From: Haliclona indistincta
Lineage: Eukaryota > Porifera > Demospongiae > Haplosclerida > Chalinidae
Assembly: GCA_964017065.1 (NCBI GenBank)
Contig: OZ024783.1
Span: forward strand, 9,499,367 to 9,563,366
DNA length: 64,000 nucleotides
Direction: 5' to 3'
Of this stretch, positions 21,803-46,999 are shown one piece after another (the stretch's first letter is position 1; each line of letters starts with the position of its first letter). The position numbers and the translations under genes are program-made. A model generated the notes under the pieces. That model was given only the letters and a program-made list of their open reading frames with translations, was not told the origin of the DNA and searched no databases.

Positions 21803-22248
21803 AATAATTTTTATATCAGCCATTTTTGTAGCCATTAATGAACACATGCTGGTGGACAATTCAGTGGTATGACAGAAAAAAATTCCCTTCATTGAATCAC
21901 CCAGTAGCCCCCTCATCTGAATTCGCCTTTGCGACCATTTAAAGTATGTAAAACAGGAGCCTAGGAAGGAGTGTTCAACTGTGAATAACAAAATTAAAGT
22001 CAGCTGCTTACACTGGCAGTATAAGACGGCGATCATGGCTCTGGCTGAACGCTCGCTCGTTTTAGCTGGAGACGGGCAGGACGAAGCATGGATGAATGTA
22101 TAGGTAGGAAACAGCGAGCGACAACAAGTAAGGCCCAAGCTCCAAGTAGCAACAGCACACGGCAGCAGACTTTAAACTTCGACAATATTACTATAGCGAA
22201 CACAGCAGTTGAACGGTCATTTCCCTTATACGCTAATGGTAAAACTAG
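21803..22248. other. No gene seen
   Basis: Short reverse-strand open frames (21788-22138, 22033-22290) have no recognisable domain and run into flanking repeats. Confidence 0.35.
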
Positions 22249-22751
22249 GCACCAAAGGTGCTGATGCCTCGGTGGAATTCCATTGTACACAGCACTGGAC
22301 TAGCTACAGTAAACTCCACCTATTATACAAGCTATAGCACAGTTCCTGTACAGTAACTATCCACCATTCCACAAACACAGCAACTGCAGATGCATCTATA
22401 CAGGATTTCTGTACAGCAATCACAATGCAGTGCTTTAGTTATGCAATCAGAAGCCAATCAGTGCTAACCACAATTCAAATGGGCGTGTCTACAGTGTTTA
22501 GCACAGCACACGCACAGGGGGGGTCGGACAGGATGTCACATGAGCGAGCCTGAGCGAGCCGACTGTCAATGAAAATATATGGCGAAATACTTTTACACGT
22601 TTATTGCACGAAATGCAACAGATTTTCAACTGAAGTGAAGTGAAACCGATAGAGTTTAATGTGTTGTTTCGATTAAAGTTGCGATCCTCAGCGATCCCCT
22701 GCACTCCGAATCTGCTACGAGCGAAAGAAGTCAGTGAATTGATTTGCGAGC

Positions 22752-25700
22752 ATGCAACGACGACAGAAGAAACGCAGGCTTGAACAAGACGTCGAACATG
22801 ATGGCAACACAGCTCCCGTCACCCCTGAGAGATGCACGGCACCGGCAACTCAAACAAACGATCTAGACTTGGCTGCATCAGTTGCAGAGCTCAGCCTATT
22901 GGAAACACCCAAGAGACCAGGGCTTCGCTCGTTGATCGAAGGCTCTCAGAATGCTAGTGCTGTTGGAGTCAAGAAAGTTTTATTTGACGAGGAAAGCAGT
23001 GGAAGTAGTGAGCTCAAGCTCGAGCCTGCTGCTGGAAGCTGGTCGAGTGAGGAAACAGCTGGTTTGATACAATTTATTCTAATGTCCACTGATGGAAAGT
23101 CCTGGTCTTTCCGAAAGAGTATTTATTTTTGGAATAAAGCTGCCACATTTGTTCAATCATATGCAAAGACTTCTCACTGCCGTTCTGGTGAGATAGTATG
23201 GTATTTATCATCATTGTTTGTAAACAACAATCATATTTCATACAGGAATTGCTTGTCGATCAAAGGTTTCAAGATATCTATCATCAAAGTTTGCTTCCCC
23301 ACTGGAAGCAGAAAAGCACTACATGAGATCTACACATCCTGCTGCTGATATAACCAGCACAGTGACAGATGTTGATAACCAATTGACACTAACTGAAGCC
23401 GTTGATTCATGTCAAAGGATAATGGCACAGCTTAGTGACTCAGAGGATCAGCTACGATTGTTGTCAGATCTGTTCGTATCATACTTGCAAGCTAAGTCAA
23501 TTCCTGCAGTTCCACAAGATTTTCTGCAGTTAGCAGTGGCAGGCATGGAGTGCTTGAAAGAGGCTGGTCGCCCAAATCTCATATATAAGTTGGCAAAGGC
23601 ATTAGGCACAACACGACCTGATGCTTCTGGCCCGCTTATTCCCGTGTCTAGAATGCCTATGGGACTACTAGAGCACATTGTGTGTTTCTACACAGCTTCA
23701 TCTATCAGACAGGTGAGTATTAGCACTTGCACCAGGTGCTATGTGACTCCACTCATCTTGAATTAACACTTTGCATGTAGGTGACCTGTCCATCTGATTA
23801 CAGACAATGGTTGCAGAGTATGTATGTTCTTTTTGGTACCAAATGGTCGAAGCTGTTTTGTGGACCAATGTGGAGTTATGTTCCAATTATGCAAGCAGAT
23901 TTTAATACGAACTCATCAATTAATCCACTTGATGTAAGTTTATTGAATTTGCTCTCATGTTTTAAGAATCATAGTAAAATTTTTATAGGCTCTAGTTAAT
24001 GTCCCCGCTGTCTCTGAGCGAACGCTTCGAAGAGACATAGAGAAAAGTGGCTTTACTACTGGCCCAGAGATTCAGGTGCACTTGCCTTATTTAAGCTGTT
24101 AACATTAATTTTAATGTTCTATTATTGGCAGACAGCAGCCTTACAAAAGGTTGCCTCTATTAAAACATGGTGGTGGATAAAGGCTGATGGATGCGATGTC
24201 GTTAAAGGAACATGGGAATCAACTACTGGAAAGTGGTCAGGTGATGTTGATCTTAACAATGGGAAACTGGAGCAACTATACAAGAACTATCAAGAGCAAG
24301 TTCGTTTCACTGAAAGTGTTGGCTTAACTTCAAGATCAACCCCTGGTCAAGTAAAACAAGATTTAGCAACTATATTGAAGAGTATTGACTTGGATTTGAA
24401 GTTCCTCAAAGAAAGTAGGCGTGCTAATGATTATAAACACCATAAATTTATAAATTTCTATGTATAGCACTACAGAATTCACAGAAAACATATGAAGAGA
24501 AATTAAAGGCCGGAAATGCTACTGAAAAAGTTATGTTTGCATTGACTTGGGATATAGAGGAGCTTTCTAAGCTACTTGCAAGCACTCGAACTCTACGGGT
24601 TGATGTGAAGGCTGCACAAGACATTGCCTGTGATCCTCATGCTGACTACGAAGAAGTTAACCTACCAAGAAAGTTAGGACAGATTCGAAAGGCACGAGTA
24701 GATGTCATCAAAAGAACAACACAATTTCGACGCAAGCCAGCAACACATATTTTCGTGGTCATGATAAGCTCTGAGCTGCGTGATCAAAAACCCTACGCAA
24801 TTCCAGTTCAGTGCATTCCTTATGCAGGCCTGAAAGAACAGGATATCAGAAGAATTGTGAATTGTCTTATCAATGAAATGATGAAGTTGGGGATGAAGGT
24901 TGCAGGTAAGCAGAAAGCATAATGTAATGAATATCTGTTTAACATAGTTATTTACAGGTTTTGTTAGCAATGGCGAGTTTAATTACTTGCGGACTAAGGG
25001 ATACTCACGTGCACTGTCTGTGCTACAAATTCGAACCAATGTGAGAAATAAATATGGCAGACCGAACAAAGACACACTACTGGCCATGCTCACACCGATA
25101 TGTAAGTAACTTGATGGCAAATAATTTATTGCATGACTCATAATGCAGCATTGCCGGATGGTACCGTAGTTGCTAGCAAGGTGAACCCAGCTGTATCTGC
25201 TACATTTCTTTGTGAAATCCAAAATATGAGAAAAAGAGGGTTGTCAATAGAGCAAATTGTTGTACAACTTCGGCCAATGACCGTACCTCCTGGTTATATA
25301 TGCAACACATGGAAAGCAGGTAGCCGATGATCATTATTATTTTATCATGATGATTGACTTTATTTTGTAGGTCAAGAAGAAGACTTTACAGACAAGATGC
25401 GGTCTATTCTGGCACAGTTAGATTATTCCTATCAAATACTACAACTGGAACAGCAAGGTGTCAATTTCAGAGTCCACTTGCACGTTCCTGAGATACATTC
25501 TCTTACGCACACTACATTTTGTGAACGAGAGGATGAGGCTCATGTTTTTAAGGTGCGAGCCATTATCTAAGTATGTACATGTATACAATTACAATTTATT
25601 CTATTACAGAGAATTGCTTCACAAACTAGAGGAGGTGGACCAAATCGACTTCAATTGCAGCGGTATGTGGAAGCCTTGTCTGATCCAACATCTAGTTTAA

Positions 25701-26552
25701 CATATCCTGCACTGACTGGGGCACGAAAGCAATCAGTGATTGATGCAGAGCGACTTTTCAATCCAGACCTTCAGAAGTTTATGGCAAGAAAAGGTTACAC
25801 TTTTGAGGCTACTTTCATAGAAACTATCTGGAATTGGAGACGGGCATGTGATGAACGCGGTCTCTCTGAAATTCAGCGCTGCAGATTCAACTATCACTTT
25901 CTAAATTTCATCTTGGACGAGCTTATGCCATGGCATACCTACATGTATGATTTTAGCACTTTGGAAGTGAACAGGTTAGTAAGAAAATGAATGCTATTAT
26001 TTTTAGTTATGTTGTCCATGTGATAGGAGAATTGATGGTATACTGGGATTCTCTAGAGAGACACTTGTGGCTGTACTTGCAAATATCGAAACAAGAGAAT
26101 GGCGTCGTCAAGAAAATGTTAACAGTGGCAGAAAGCCAGAACACCCAAGAGCGAGTAGCACTGATGACGTAGAGTGTTTTTTTAGTGTTTTAAGAGACAG
26201 CGTTGGGCAAAATTTCACTACAAAAGAGGTCAAGTTCGGTTTTCGAAAAGCCTGTGTTGAACTAACAAAACGTCTTGATCCAGATCTACCATTTTACTAT
26301 CACACTTCGAGTCACACACGATTTTATGAAGGACCAATGCCTGACTTCAATGAGCAGAGATCTACTGACAAAAGAAAATGCAGACGGGTTCCAAGAAGGG
26401 AACAGCCAGCAGCATTCGCACCTAGACGGGCTACAATGCCCGTCAGAGGTACTTTAAGTGTCAGGGCAGAATTTCACAACAAGCCAATAGAGTTGCCACC
26501 TCTTCCTAATGAACATGTTCATGTTTTTGACCATAGTTATGCTCAACAGTGA
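22752..26552 (+). CDS. Putative transposase, 11 exons, 1083 residues
   Basis: Exons: 22752-23187, 23246-23712, 23781-23933, 23989-24075, 24132-24414, 24468-24905, 24958-25101, 25149-25319, 25371-25552, 25610-25974, 26027-26552. Introns are 47-68 bases, all GT..AG, and all phases match with no internal stop. The N-terminus is basic (MQRRQKKRRLEQDVE). A zinc-ribbon-like or C2H2-like region may lie at about 105-180 (WSSEETAGLIQFIL, SHCRSGIACRSK, HYMRSTHP). The middle has IKTWWWIKADGCDVVKG and HIFVVMISSELRDQKPYAIP before GFVSNGEFNYLRTKG (622-636). The C-terminus has TDDVECFFSVLRD (954-966) and LDPDLPFYYHTSSHTRFYEG. In RNase H-fold transposases, E in a helix such as E958 of DDVECFFSVLR can be the third catalytic residue; the first two are not certain (N626 sits where D might be expected). 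A role as transposase is inferred from location and size. Confidence 0.75.
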
Positions 26553-26637
26553 CATAATGTTAATTGATTAATATTGGGTTAACAAATTATTATTGAACTT
26601 GTTCATTGATTATAATGATATGATACTGACATTGTTG

Positions 26638-27590
26638 TTATCGTGTACTAGCAGATTTATGTATTACAGAACACCATTTTCCGTTGATAGTAATATCTAC
26701 TCCGGCATAGAATCCAGGTCCAGAACGTTGCCACACCACCAAGTACTTTACCCAAGAAAATGATACATTCACAATTTTTTCTTGATTTAATGCGTTGTGT
26801 ACTTCATCCAATGCTTCTCTAACAATATATCCTATCCGATGCCATTCTTCATCTACTAAGCACTGAATAGCAATGGCTTTAGAATCATGTGTATTTTCGG
26901 GCTCAGGTTTTAGTCTAACAGAGACAACTCCTGTTTTCTGTAGCTGTACAACTTTACTCAGTGTCTCTTGAGCATGATGATCATGAACAGTTCCTATACA
27001 TTTAAAGGTGACTGTGTCAGAGATACCAATACAGGATGATGAGTTGTCATTTTCAGAATCAGATATATCAATCTGGAGATCAGGATTATAATGTTCTGGT
27101 ACATCACTAGTAATTGATGAATCAGATTCAACCGCATCACTTTCGTTGTCATCCCAAGACCATTTCCAAACAATTATCACACCCTGGGAAGGTAAAATCA
27201 GTCCTGTTGTACTAGCAGATCTGTTAAACTCTTCAACCTTCATGTATAAAACACAATGTATTAACTACTAGTACTATAAAAATTATACTGATAAATGCGT
27301 ACCTGGACACACACTGCTTCCTTAATAACTAGCCAAGCTGGATAGCTACGGTTCAGATCGATGTCACTACGAATAAAAAAGTCATAATGGATCTCCTTTC
27401 CATAGCTGTCGTACCCCTTGACTCTTGCTTGCTGTAGATCTACTTGCAGTACCTCAAACGACGGTATAACGTACTTGAAAGTAGGCCCAACCGACAGCAA
27501 ACAAACCTGGTCTTCAGGCAAGCTAGGATCGTAACCTGGACGCGACGATGCAGGAACGAAAGAGACAGAAGAAAGAGTTGATCGCTCCAT
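26638..27590 (-). CDS. HIRAN-domain accessory protein of the transposon
   Basis: Two exons on the minus strand: 27590-27303 and 27237-26638, with a 65-bp intron, phase 0; 295 residues. The N-terminal 96 residues (MERSTLSSVSFVPASSRPGY) are unrecognised. An acidic Ser-rich linker follows (about 125-170). Residues about 172-249 fit a HIRAN domain: VTFKCIGTVHDH, VVSVRLKPEPENTHDSKAIA (a version of the N-x-xDxxAI pattern) and HRIGYIVREA. HIRAN domains, known from HLTF/Rad5, bind single-stranded DNA 3' ends at stalled forks. In a transposon such a domain could hold element ends or hairpin intermediates; that is inference. It converges on the transposase gene, stops 85 bp apart, so they may share terminator sequence. 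The start ATG is followed 54 bp downstream of the right inverted repeat's inner edge. Confidence 0.75.
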
Positions 27591-28291
27591 TCAGTTGAAC
27601 ACGTGCAATAACAAGAATGCTTGGAATGTTAATTGATTTTGCATGTCCGACCCCCCCTGGCACACGCATACCACGAGCTAGATAGCTTCCATAGCTTGCT
27701 TACACGATTTCTCTGGACCTGCGCTGCTATCCTGTAGTAAAATTCTAACCTATCAGCTTCTAGGCAGTCAACTGTGGACAGCTTTGCCTTTGGAGAAGTC
27801 CAGATCGCCAGCAACGGTAAACAAAGTGAGCAAATAGCACCATAACTCACGAACTAAGCTTGATATAAAGTTTTCACATGTTCAAAAGCGAGGTAATACC
27901 GTGTTCTACTTGCATCGCTAGTTTCAGAGCTTAACTTTCAACGTGCGCTACAAAACCGAACCAACCGAGAGCAATTCACACGGTAACTTACGCACTAAGC
28001 TTTAAAATCAAACTTCTGAAAATACAAATCCGAGCAAGTATCGATTTCTACCTGTGTTGCTTTTTTCAGCGATTAGTTTTCAGCGAGCTACGAGAAATCG
28101 TTGCGACAGACAGACTGACTGACTGACTGACTGACACCACGACTACTGTATGCCTCGTGGCTCCGCCCACCGAGGCATAATTAATGCTGGAAAAGTTAAT
28201 GTTAGTTACAATCACCATAATATGTGCTCAAGTGAAAGAACAGAAGCAGTAGGAAACAACTATTATTAACGAGACAACAAATCAGTTAATC

Positions 28292-46559: not shown

Positions 46560-46999
46560 CAGAGGAGGCAGGACATGAGTCATAATTACATCACATTGGA
46601 ATGCATTGCATTGATAATCACGTACTGACCAGCTACCACGCCCCCGCATGCCTCAAAGTGGAGGCTGCTTTTGTACGCTTGCTGGCTACTCATAACGTTA
46701 ACTTTCAGTGATCTTCAAGCTGATCGAGGTAGTACAGGACGTCTTTCTTGCTGTGATAGTTTATAGTCTTCCTTCTCTGCTTTTGGATGTTTTGCCAGTT
46801 CACAGGCTTCTACTCAAGATAAAAGGTAATTGACTATGTTCCCTATGTCCTAAAACTACCAGCACACAAACATGTTAAGTTGATAGAATCGTTGCATGAT
46901 TCAAGTTGGCCATTTTCCTCAACCATCAGAACACAAAAACAATGTTTTCTTAATCTAGAAGTTGATCAGCTGTTACATACCCATGTCCTGCCTCCTCTG
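46560..46999. mobile_element. 440-bp MITE with 9-bp target duplication, related to the 5.1-kb transposon
   Basis: The ends CAGAGGAGGCAGGACATG and CATGTCCTGCCTCCTCTG are perfect 18-bp inverted repeats. It is flanked by ATTCATGAA at 46551-46559 and 47000-47008. The end agrees with that of the 22515-27659 element (CAGGGGGGGTCGGACATG on its right end) at 14 of 18 positions, and both duplicate 9 bp. No coding capacity. Confidence 0.85.

Follow-up and report, generated by a model that had tools for sequence, protein, structure and literature searches.

Which superfamily does the DNA transposon at 22515–27659 of the window (the whole 64,000-nucleotide stretch of the sponge Haliclona indistincta analysed here) belong to, and does its own transposase have what is needed to move it? 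The initial annotation placed the element in an 'unrecognised superfamily', and among the titles listed and passages covered in a literature search there was no description of this transposon lineage.

A complete and recent insertion

The locus is a complete, recent DNA transposon with inverted ends, a 9-bp target-site duplication and two open spliced genes. Its 16-bp terminal inverted repeats (CAGGGGGGGTCGGACA at 22515–22530 on the forward strand and its counterpart at 27644–27659 on the reverse strand) are 100% complementary, and GCACACGCA abuts the element immediately outside its left and right ends (22506–22514 and 27660–27668), as seen in the flanks and in an empty site. The element splits a multicopy host repeat (49 matches for the left flank), the left part of which lies at 22243–22514 on the forward strand and which resumes at 27669–28068. 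The joined flanks with a single copy of the 9-mer correspond to C4:11833107-11833778 over 672 of 672 bases at 100% identity, an intact paralogous target site; with 40 of 1939 candidate places scored, at least 70 matches to this query were listed, 14 of which span all 672 bases at 87–100% identity. Because the C4 target site is uninterrupted, the insertion is real, and both element ends and the duplication length are fixed. A chance inverted repeat was rejected on the reversed control pattern, which occurs 0 times in the genome, and a segmental duplication in place of an insertion was rejected on the empty target site.

The 144-Mb host genome contains four near-full copies and two with internal deletions. 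Compared with the window copy, L002 differs by 6 substitutions in 5145 bases with no indel and has both genes open, L003 carries, besides 16 substitutions, several indels of which one deletes a splice acceptor, and L004 differs by 17 substitutions and indels and has a frameshifted HIRAN-like gene. Both genes are open in two of the four near-full copies, the transposase gene in three and the partner gene in three. The initial annotation had described perfect 16-bp inverted ends and an exact 9-bp duplication, which are confirmed, and had suggested an apparently complete element of recent activity, a reading that is supported. L004 also carries an insert of ~1.3 kb at TTAA (C4:7741993-7743327, beginning TTAACTCTTTAGGGAC) that is piggyBac-like by its target alone.

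The exact 16-bp end occurs 27 times in the genome, with two further occurrences at one mismatch, and a related 14-mer, CAGAGGAGGTYGGM, occurs 418 times versus 6 for its control. The window itself holds a second element at 46560–46999, 440 bp long, whose perfect 18-bp ends (CAGAGGAGGCAGGACATG) relate it to the main transposon; its duplication, ATTCATGAA, is also 9 bp.

The 9-bp duplication claimed for the window copy recurs at other copies. Across 27 end pairs it was exact at 20, with 10 bp at one, no exact match at six and 8 bp at none, a tally on which an 8-bp duplication misread as 9 bp was rejected. The window element's own family has exact 9-bp duplications in 10 of 11 end pairs, the exception being L004; eight more ends of this family, which had no mate by pattern, were left unscored. 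Six pairs of related ends gave four exact 9-bp duplications, one 8/9 match and one without a match, unpaired related ends having been dropped (C2:7437684, C4:4708940, C6:10316774, C7:5264096 and C7:5268750). The first 10 close pairs among the listed CAGAGGAGGTYGGM ends, with three unpaired ends met in the list passed over, gave exact 9 bp in six, exact 10 bp in one, a 7/9 match in one and none in two. Of the 20 exact 9-bp duplications, 19 begin with G or A and 17 end in C or T. Mispaired flanks, used as a control, agreed over at least 8 bp in 2 of 702 combinations, and both of these matches come from two neighbouring elements with a common target, GTCAATCCT. At C1:19175277-19178002 (L006/L007), a deleted copy of the family adjoins a 771-bp element with AGG-type ends, and three copies of GTCAATCCT are present, as though the duplication left by the first insertion had been used by the second.

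Two genes, tail to tail

Two spliced genes without stops, of 1083 and 295 residues, had been annotated initially and were confirmed on the sequence, with the splice sites of both picked from sequence alone. The first, at 22752–26552 on the forward strand, has 11 exons and 10 GT-AG introns of 47–68 bp, and we infer that its product is an RNase H-fold transposase. The N-terminus, at about residues 94–170, is weakly Myb/SANT-like, as judged from a Myb_DNA-bind_4 match in one of 16 relatives (E 0.016). The match to PF21787, the TNP-like RNase H profile of P/THAP9, covers residues 563–630. The first catalytic Asp was placed at D400 by eye and from its position, with D403 conserved as well, and N626 occupies the position of the second. 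The D(2)H motif, D781xxH784, is present in 16 of 16 rows with those columns and E958, assigned by position, in 14 of 14 rows with that column, the alignment having 21 rows in total. D400 and N626 are 226 residues apart, and N626 and D781 155, versus 73 and 36 in Drosophila P (PMC8230255), and this long spacing points to two extra stretches inside the catalytic domain, the first of which (about 435–560) is helical-looking, with weak coiled-coil matches. Neither the window transposase nor the 16 relatives gave a Pfam match for a GTP-binding domain; a stretch of similar length has conserved D868 and D955.

The second gene, on the reverse strand at 26638–27590 (exons 27590–27303 and 27237–26638), lies tail-to-tail with the transposase gene across a gap of 85 bp, and its 295-residue product has a C-terminal HIRAN-like domain. 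The HIRAN profile PF08797 matches this protein sub-threshold (E=2.5e-4, 21.2 bits versus a cut-off of 24.7); it was found in all eight partner relatives scanned (E 0.0039 or better), in one of them above the cut-off. When a 20-row partner profile was compared with the PDB, the matches were five HLTF HIRAN sequences alone, and these were weak (E 1.3–1.6). Partner residue N211 is conserved without exception across the 20 aligned rows; in HLTF, N90 and N91 have been mutated as conserved residues (PMC4666394). RING and helicase profiles of Pfam were absent from the 295-residue protein. Almost all of the sixty relatives found for it are ENA, lgn or JGI entries, and the titles listed in our literature search included no HIRAN transposon gene.

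The tail-to-tail arrangement of a HIRAN-like gene and a transposase gene was seen at all eight loci with both genes, in three families: the four near-full copies, three loci of the C3/C6 family and C7:5264215. The HIRAN partner proposed initially stands as a HIRAN-like gene in a conserved arrangement, with a Pfam match below threshold. By analogy, the protein would be a dedicated accessory of the transposase. HIRAN-like matches also occur without a transposase match, for example at C1:12980201 and in a 1.75-kb element at C8:696236-697989. The stops listed for the HIRAN-like genes of C8 and C7 are located within inserts where the window gene has its intron, so these genes may be intact. Elements of ~1.8–2.7 kb with GGG-type ends and HIRAN-like coding pieces were also observed (L044, L046 and L048, and the single-ended L043, L045, L047 and L049); several of the GGG-ended elements L043–L049 have many stops, and no transposase match was listed for them.

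Asparagine at the second catalytic position

Both frames of the window copy are open, as the initial annotation of intact genes had it, but the residue aligned with the second catalytic Asp is Asn, and the DDE triad, complete in relatives, is incomplete in the window family. The profile comparison by hhalign pairs N626 with an Asp of a canonical P protein encoded in the same genome, and that Asp aligns in turn with D303 of Drosophila P (a weak match, E=0.26). The position is occupied by Asn in three of the four near-full copies and by Tyr in the fourth. Among relatives, it is Asp in 13 of 17 rows and Asn in four (the window protein, P0001, P0004 and P0006), the column being absent from 4 of the 21 aligned rows. 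The tree needs three changes between Asp and Asn, at least two of which are forced by supported branches, and the Asn label shows no marked clustering on it (106 of 500 shuffles were equally low). Metnase/SETMAR functions with a DDN triad, in which the third residue is the N (PMC8230255).

A question separate from kinship is whether the family is self-sufficient at all. It may be that N626 has disabled the transposase and that a relative carrying D mobilized the present copies in trans, to which we give somewhat less than an even chance. This reading draws on the presence of N or Y at 626 throughout the four near-full copies, on the predominance of D among the rows with that column and on the C7 sister family, which has D and one similar end; the recurrence of N in three other proteins, with its forced changes on the tree, suggests instead that N may be tolerated, and the transposase frame has stayed open in most of the near-full copies. 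We think it quite improbable that the element encodes a DDE transposase that works with Asn and is served by its own HIRAN-type protein for binding the ends. Such an enzyme would be a true D-N-E transposase, or would acquire its Asp later, either through A-to-I editing of the AAT codon or through deamidation of the Asn-Gly pair N626-G627, which would make it delayed or tissue-limited. Asn at 626 could be tolerated, be converted to Asp or belong to copies moved in trans.

Kinship of the transposase

The transposase has at least 17 relatives (10 from a first search and 7 new in a second, with ~8000 candidates scored in each), 16 of which were used in the alignment, P0010 being omitted. They include proteins of Dysidea avara, Halichondria panicea and Branchiostoma, and the remainder are JGI entries. 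PF21787 is the sole transposase profile in Pfam that responds, in the window protein (E=0.0037, which misses the curated cut-off, over profile positions 64–128 of 137 only) as well as in its relatives (14 of 16 at E up to 1, the best at 7.8e-6). The canonical P protein from the same genome matches it at E=3e-27. The RNase H profile characteristic of the P superfamily is thus found in this lineage, sub-threshold in the window protein itself. Aligned with hhalign, a 17-row profile matched that canonical P protein over residues 563–628 at E=1.5e-4 (a single comparison, probability 52%), and eight shuffled controls gave E values of 0.14–0.8; since the span is limited to these residues, D400 and E958 rest on position rather than on alignment to P. 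Neither the window protein nor its relatives matched a P transposase, or any other, in sequence comparison with the PDB, and Pfam yielded neither a THAP domain nor a C-terminal P domain in the window protein or the 16 relatives. The same genome also contains 59 canonical P-type PF21787 matches at E up to 0.001, reaching E=1.2e-25, at loci including C1:321664, C1:1427512 and C5:12359044; some of these matches recur in several places, identical in score and in the length of the open frame.

With the PF21787 response, the hhalign match and the D(2)H motif, the 'unrecognised superfamily' of the initial annotation is no longer supported. We consider it probable that the transposon represents a deep, divergent P-element-related lineage that moves by cut-and-paste. 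Because it has no 8-bp (or 7–8-bp) duplication, no THAP domain and no full DDE triad, we name it P-related and not a strict P element. BuT5 was reportedly assigned to a divergent P element by Rius et al. in 2013, and we know of no HIRAN partner for BuT5 or for that element. Given the 9 bp of BuT5, with its reported tie to P, and the 7–8 bp of Galileo, duplication length alone makes no superfamily.

A separate superfamily, that is, an RNase H transposase clade sharing only the general C/DxxH group and distinguished by a 9-bp duplication, a Myb-like N-terminus and a HIRAN-like partner, appears unlikely to us. Such a clade would agree with 9 bp as the commonest duplication length across families, with a profile link to P that is weak and partial, with the unusual catalytic spacing and with the HIRAN-like gene accompanying the transposase, and the C/DxxH motif is common to five superfamilies, namely hAT, Kolobok, MuDR, Dada and P (PMC10045372). 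Against it, PF21787 is the only transposase profile to respond, hhalign links the lineage with a canonical P protein encoded in this genome, and duplication length already varies inside P, as in Galileo. The CAGGG ends of this element recall hAT, but the hAT dimerisation motif and MULE signature that the initial annotation had found lacking are indeed missing at the profile level: scans to E=10 for the window protein and to E=1 for the 16 relatives gave no MULE, hAT or other non-P transposase profile. The 9-bp duplication also departs from the 8 bp of hAT. Even with MuDR duplications ranging from 4 to 10 bp (PMC10045372), membership of MULE, hAT or another described non-P superfamily is therefore very improbable.

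Proposed mechanism and significance

For the P-related lineage that we favour, the Myb-like N-terminus of the transposase would bind the element ends, and the active site would be built from D400, position 626, E958 and the D(2)H motif. The ends would be cut and then joined to the target across a 9-bp stagger, with the host filling the gaps. P transposase cuts leave 17-nt 3' overhangs (PMC7776569), and the HIRAN of HLTF is a DNA-binding domain (PMC4666394); by analogy, we would guess that the HIRAN-like protein binds 3' single strands exposed on the excised element, or else the gap. Many short elements with CAGRGRRGGTYGG-type ends may be mobilized by machinery of this type.

If this placement is right, the P superfamily is widened by a lineage that has a stagger of 9 bp, binds DNA through another kind of front end and conserves a second gene, with relatives in two sponges and amphioxus. 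The partner would raise the question of whether P-type elements, once excised, have their 3' single strands handled by a second protein. Its copies are nearly identical, two of them having both genes open, which would make this a candidate active P-like element outside flies and fish.

Comparison with known systems

The partner protein resembles the HIRAN of HLTF in a core of the EPxNxYDxxAI type that aligns with DPNNPYDKNAI of HLTF, and is unlike it in being a stand-alone 295-residue transposon protein in which RING and helicase profiles were not found. The window transposase resembles the P element and THAP9 in its (partially matched) PF21787 RNase H domain and in the D(2)H motif, which belongs to the P signature (PMC8230255). 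As in P (D528/E531), an Asp sits three residues ahead of the Glu presumed to be catalytic (D955/E958), and the stretch from the D(2)H motif to that Glu is similar in length (177 residues here versus 192). Unlike P, the transposase has extra stretches of ~150 and ~120 residues in its catalytic domain and Asn at the second Asp, the element has a HIRAN-like partner, THAP was not found, and the duplication is 9 bp versus the 8 bp of the Drosophila P and zebrafish P elements (PMC7776569). The target mark, the DNA-binding front end and the conserved second gene set this lineage apart from the P element of the fruit fly. Galileo, a member of the P superfamily in Drosophila, has a D(2)H motif, an RNase H-type transposase and many defective copies in common with the present lineage and differs from it in its 7–8 bp duplications, THAP domain and long ends (PMC4168063). 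The 9-bp duplication, in turn, is shared with BuT5 of the Drosophila repleta group (PMC3355041).
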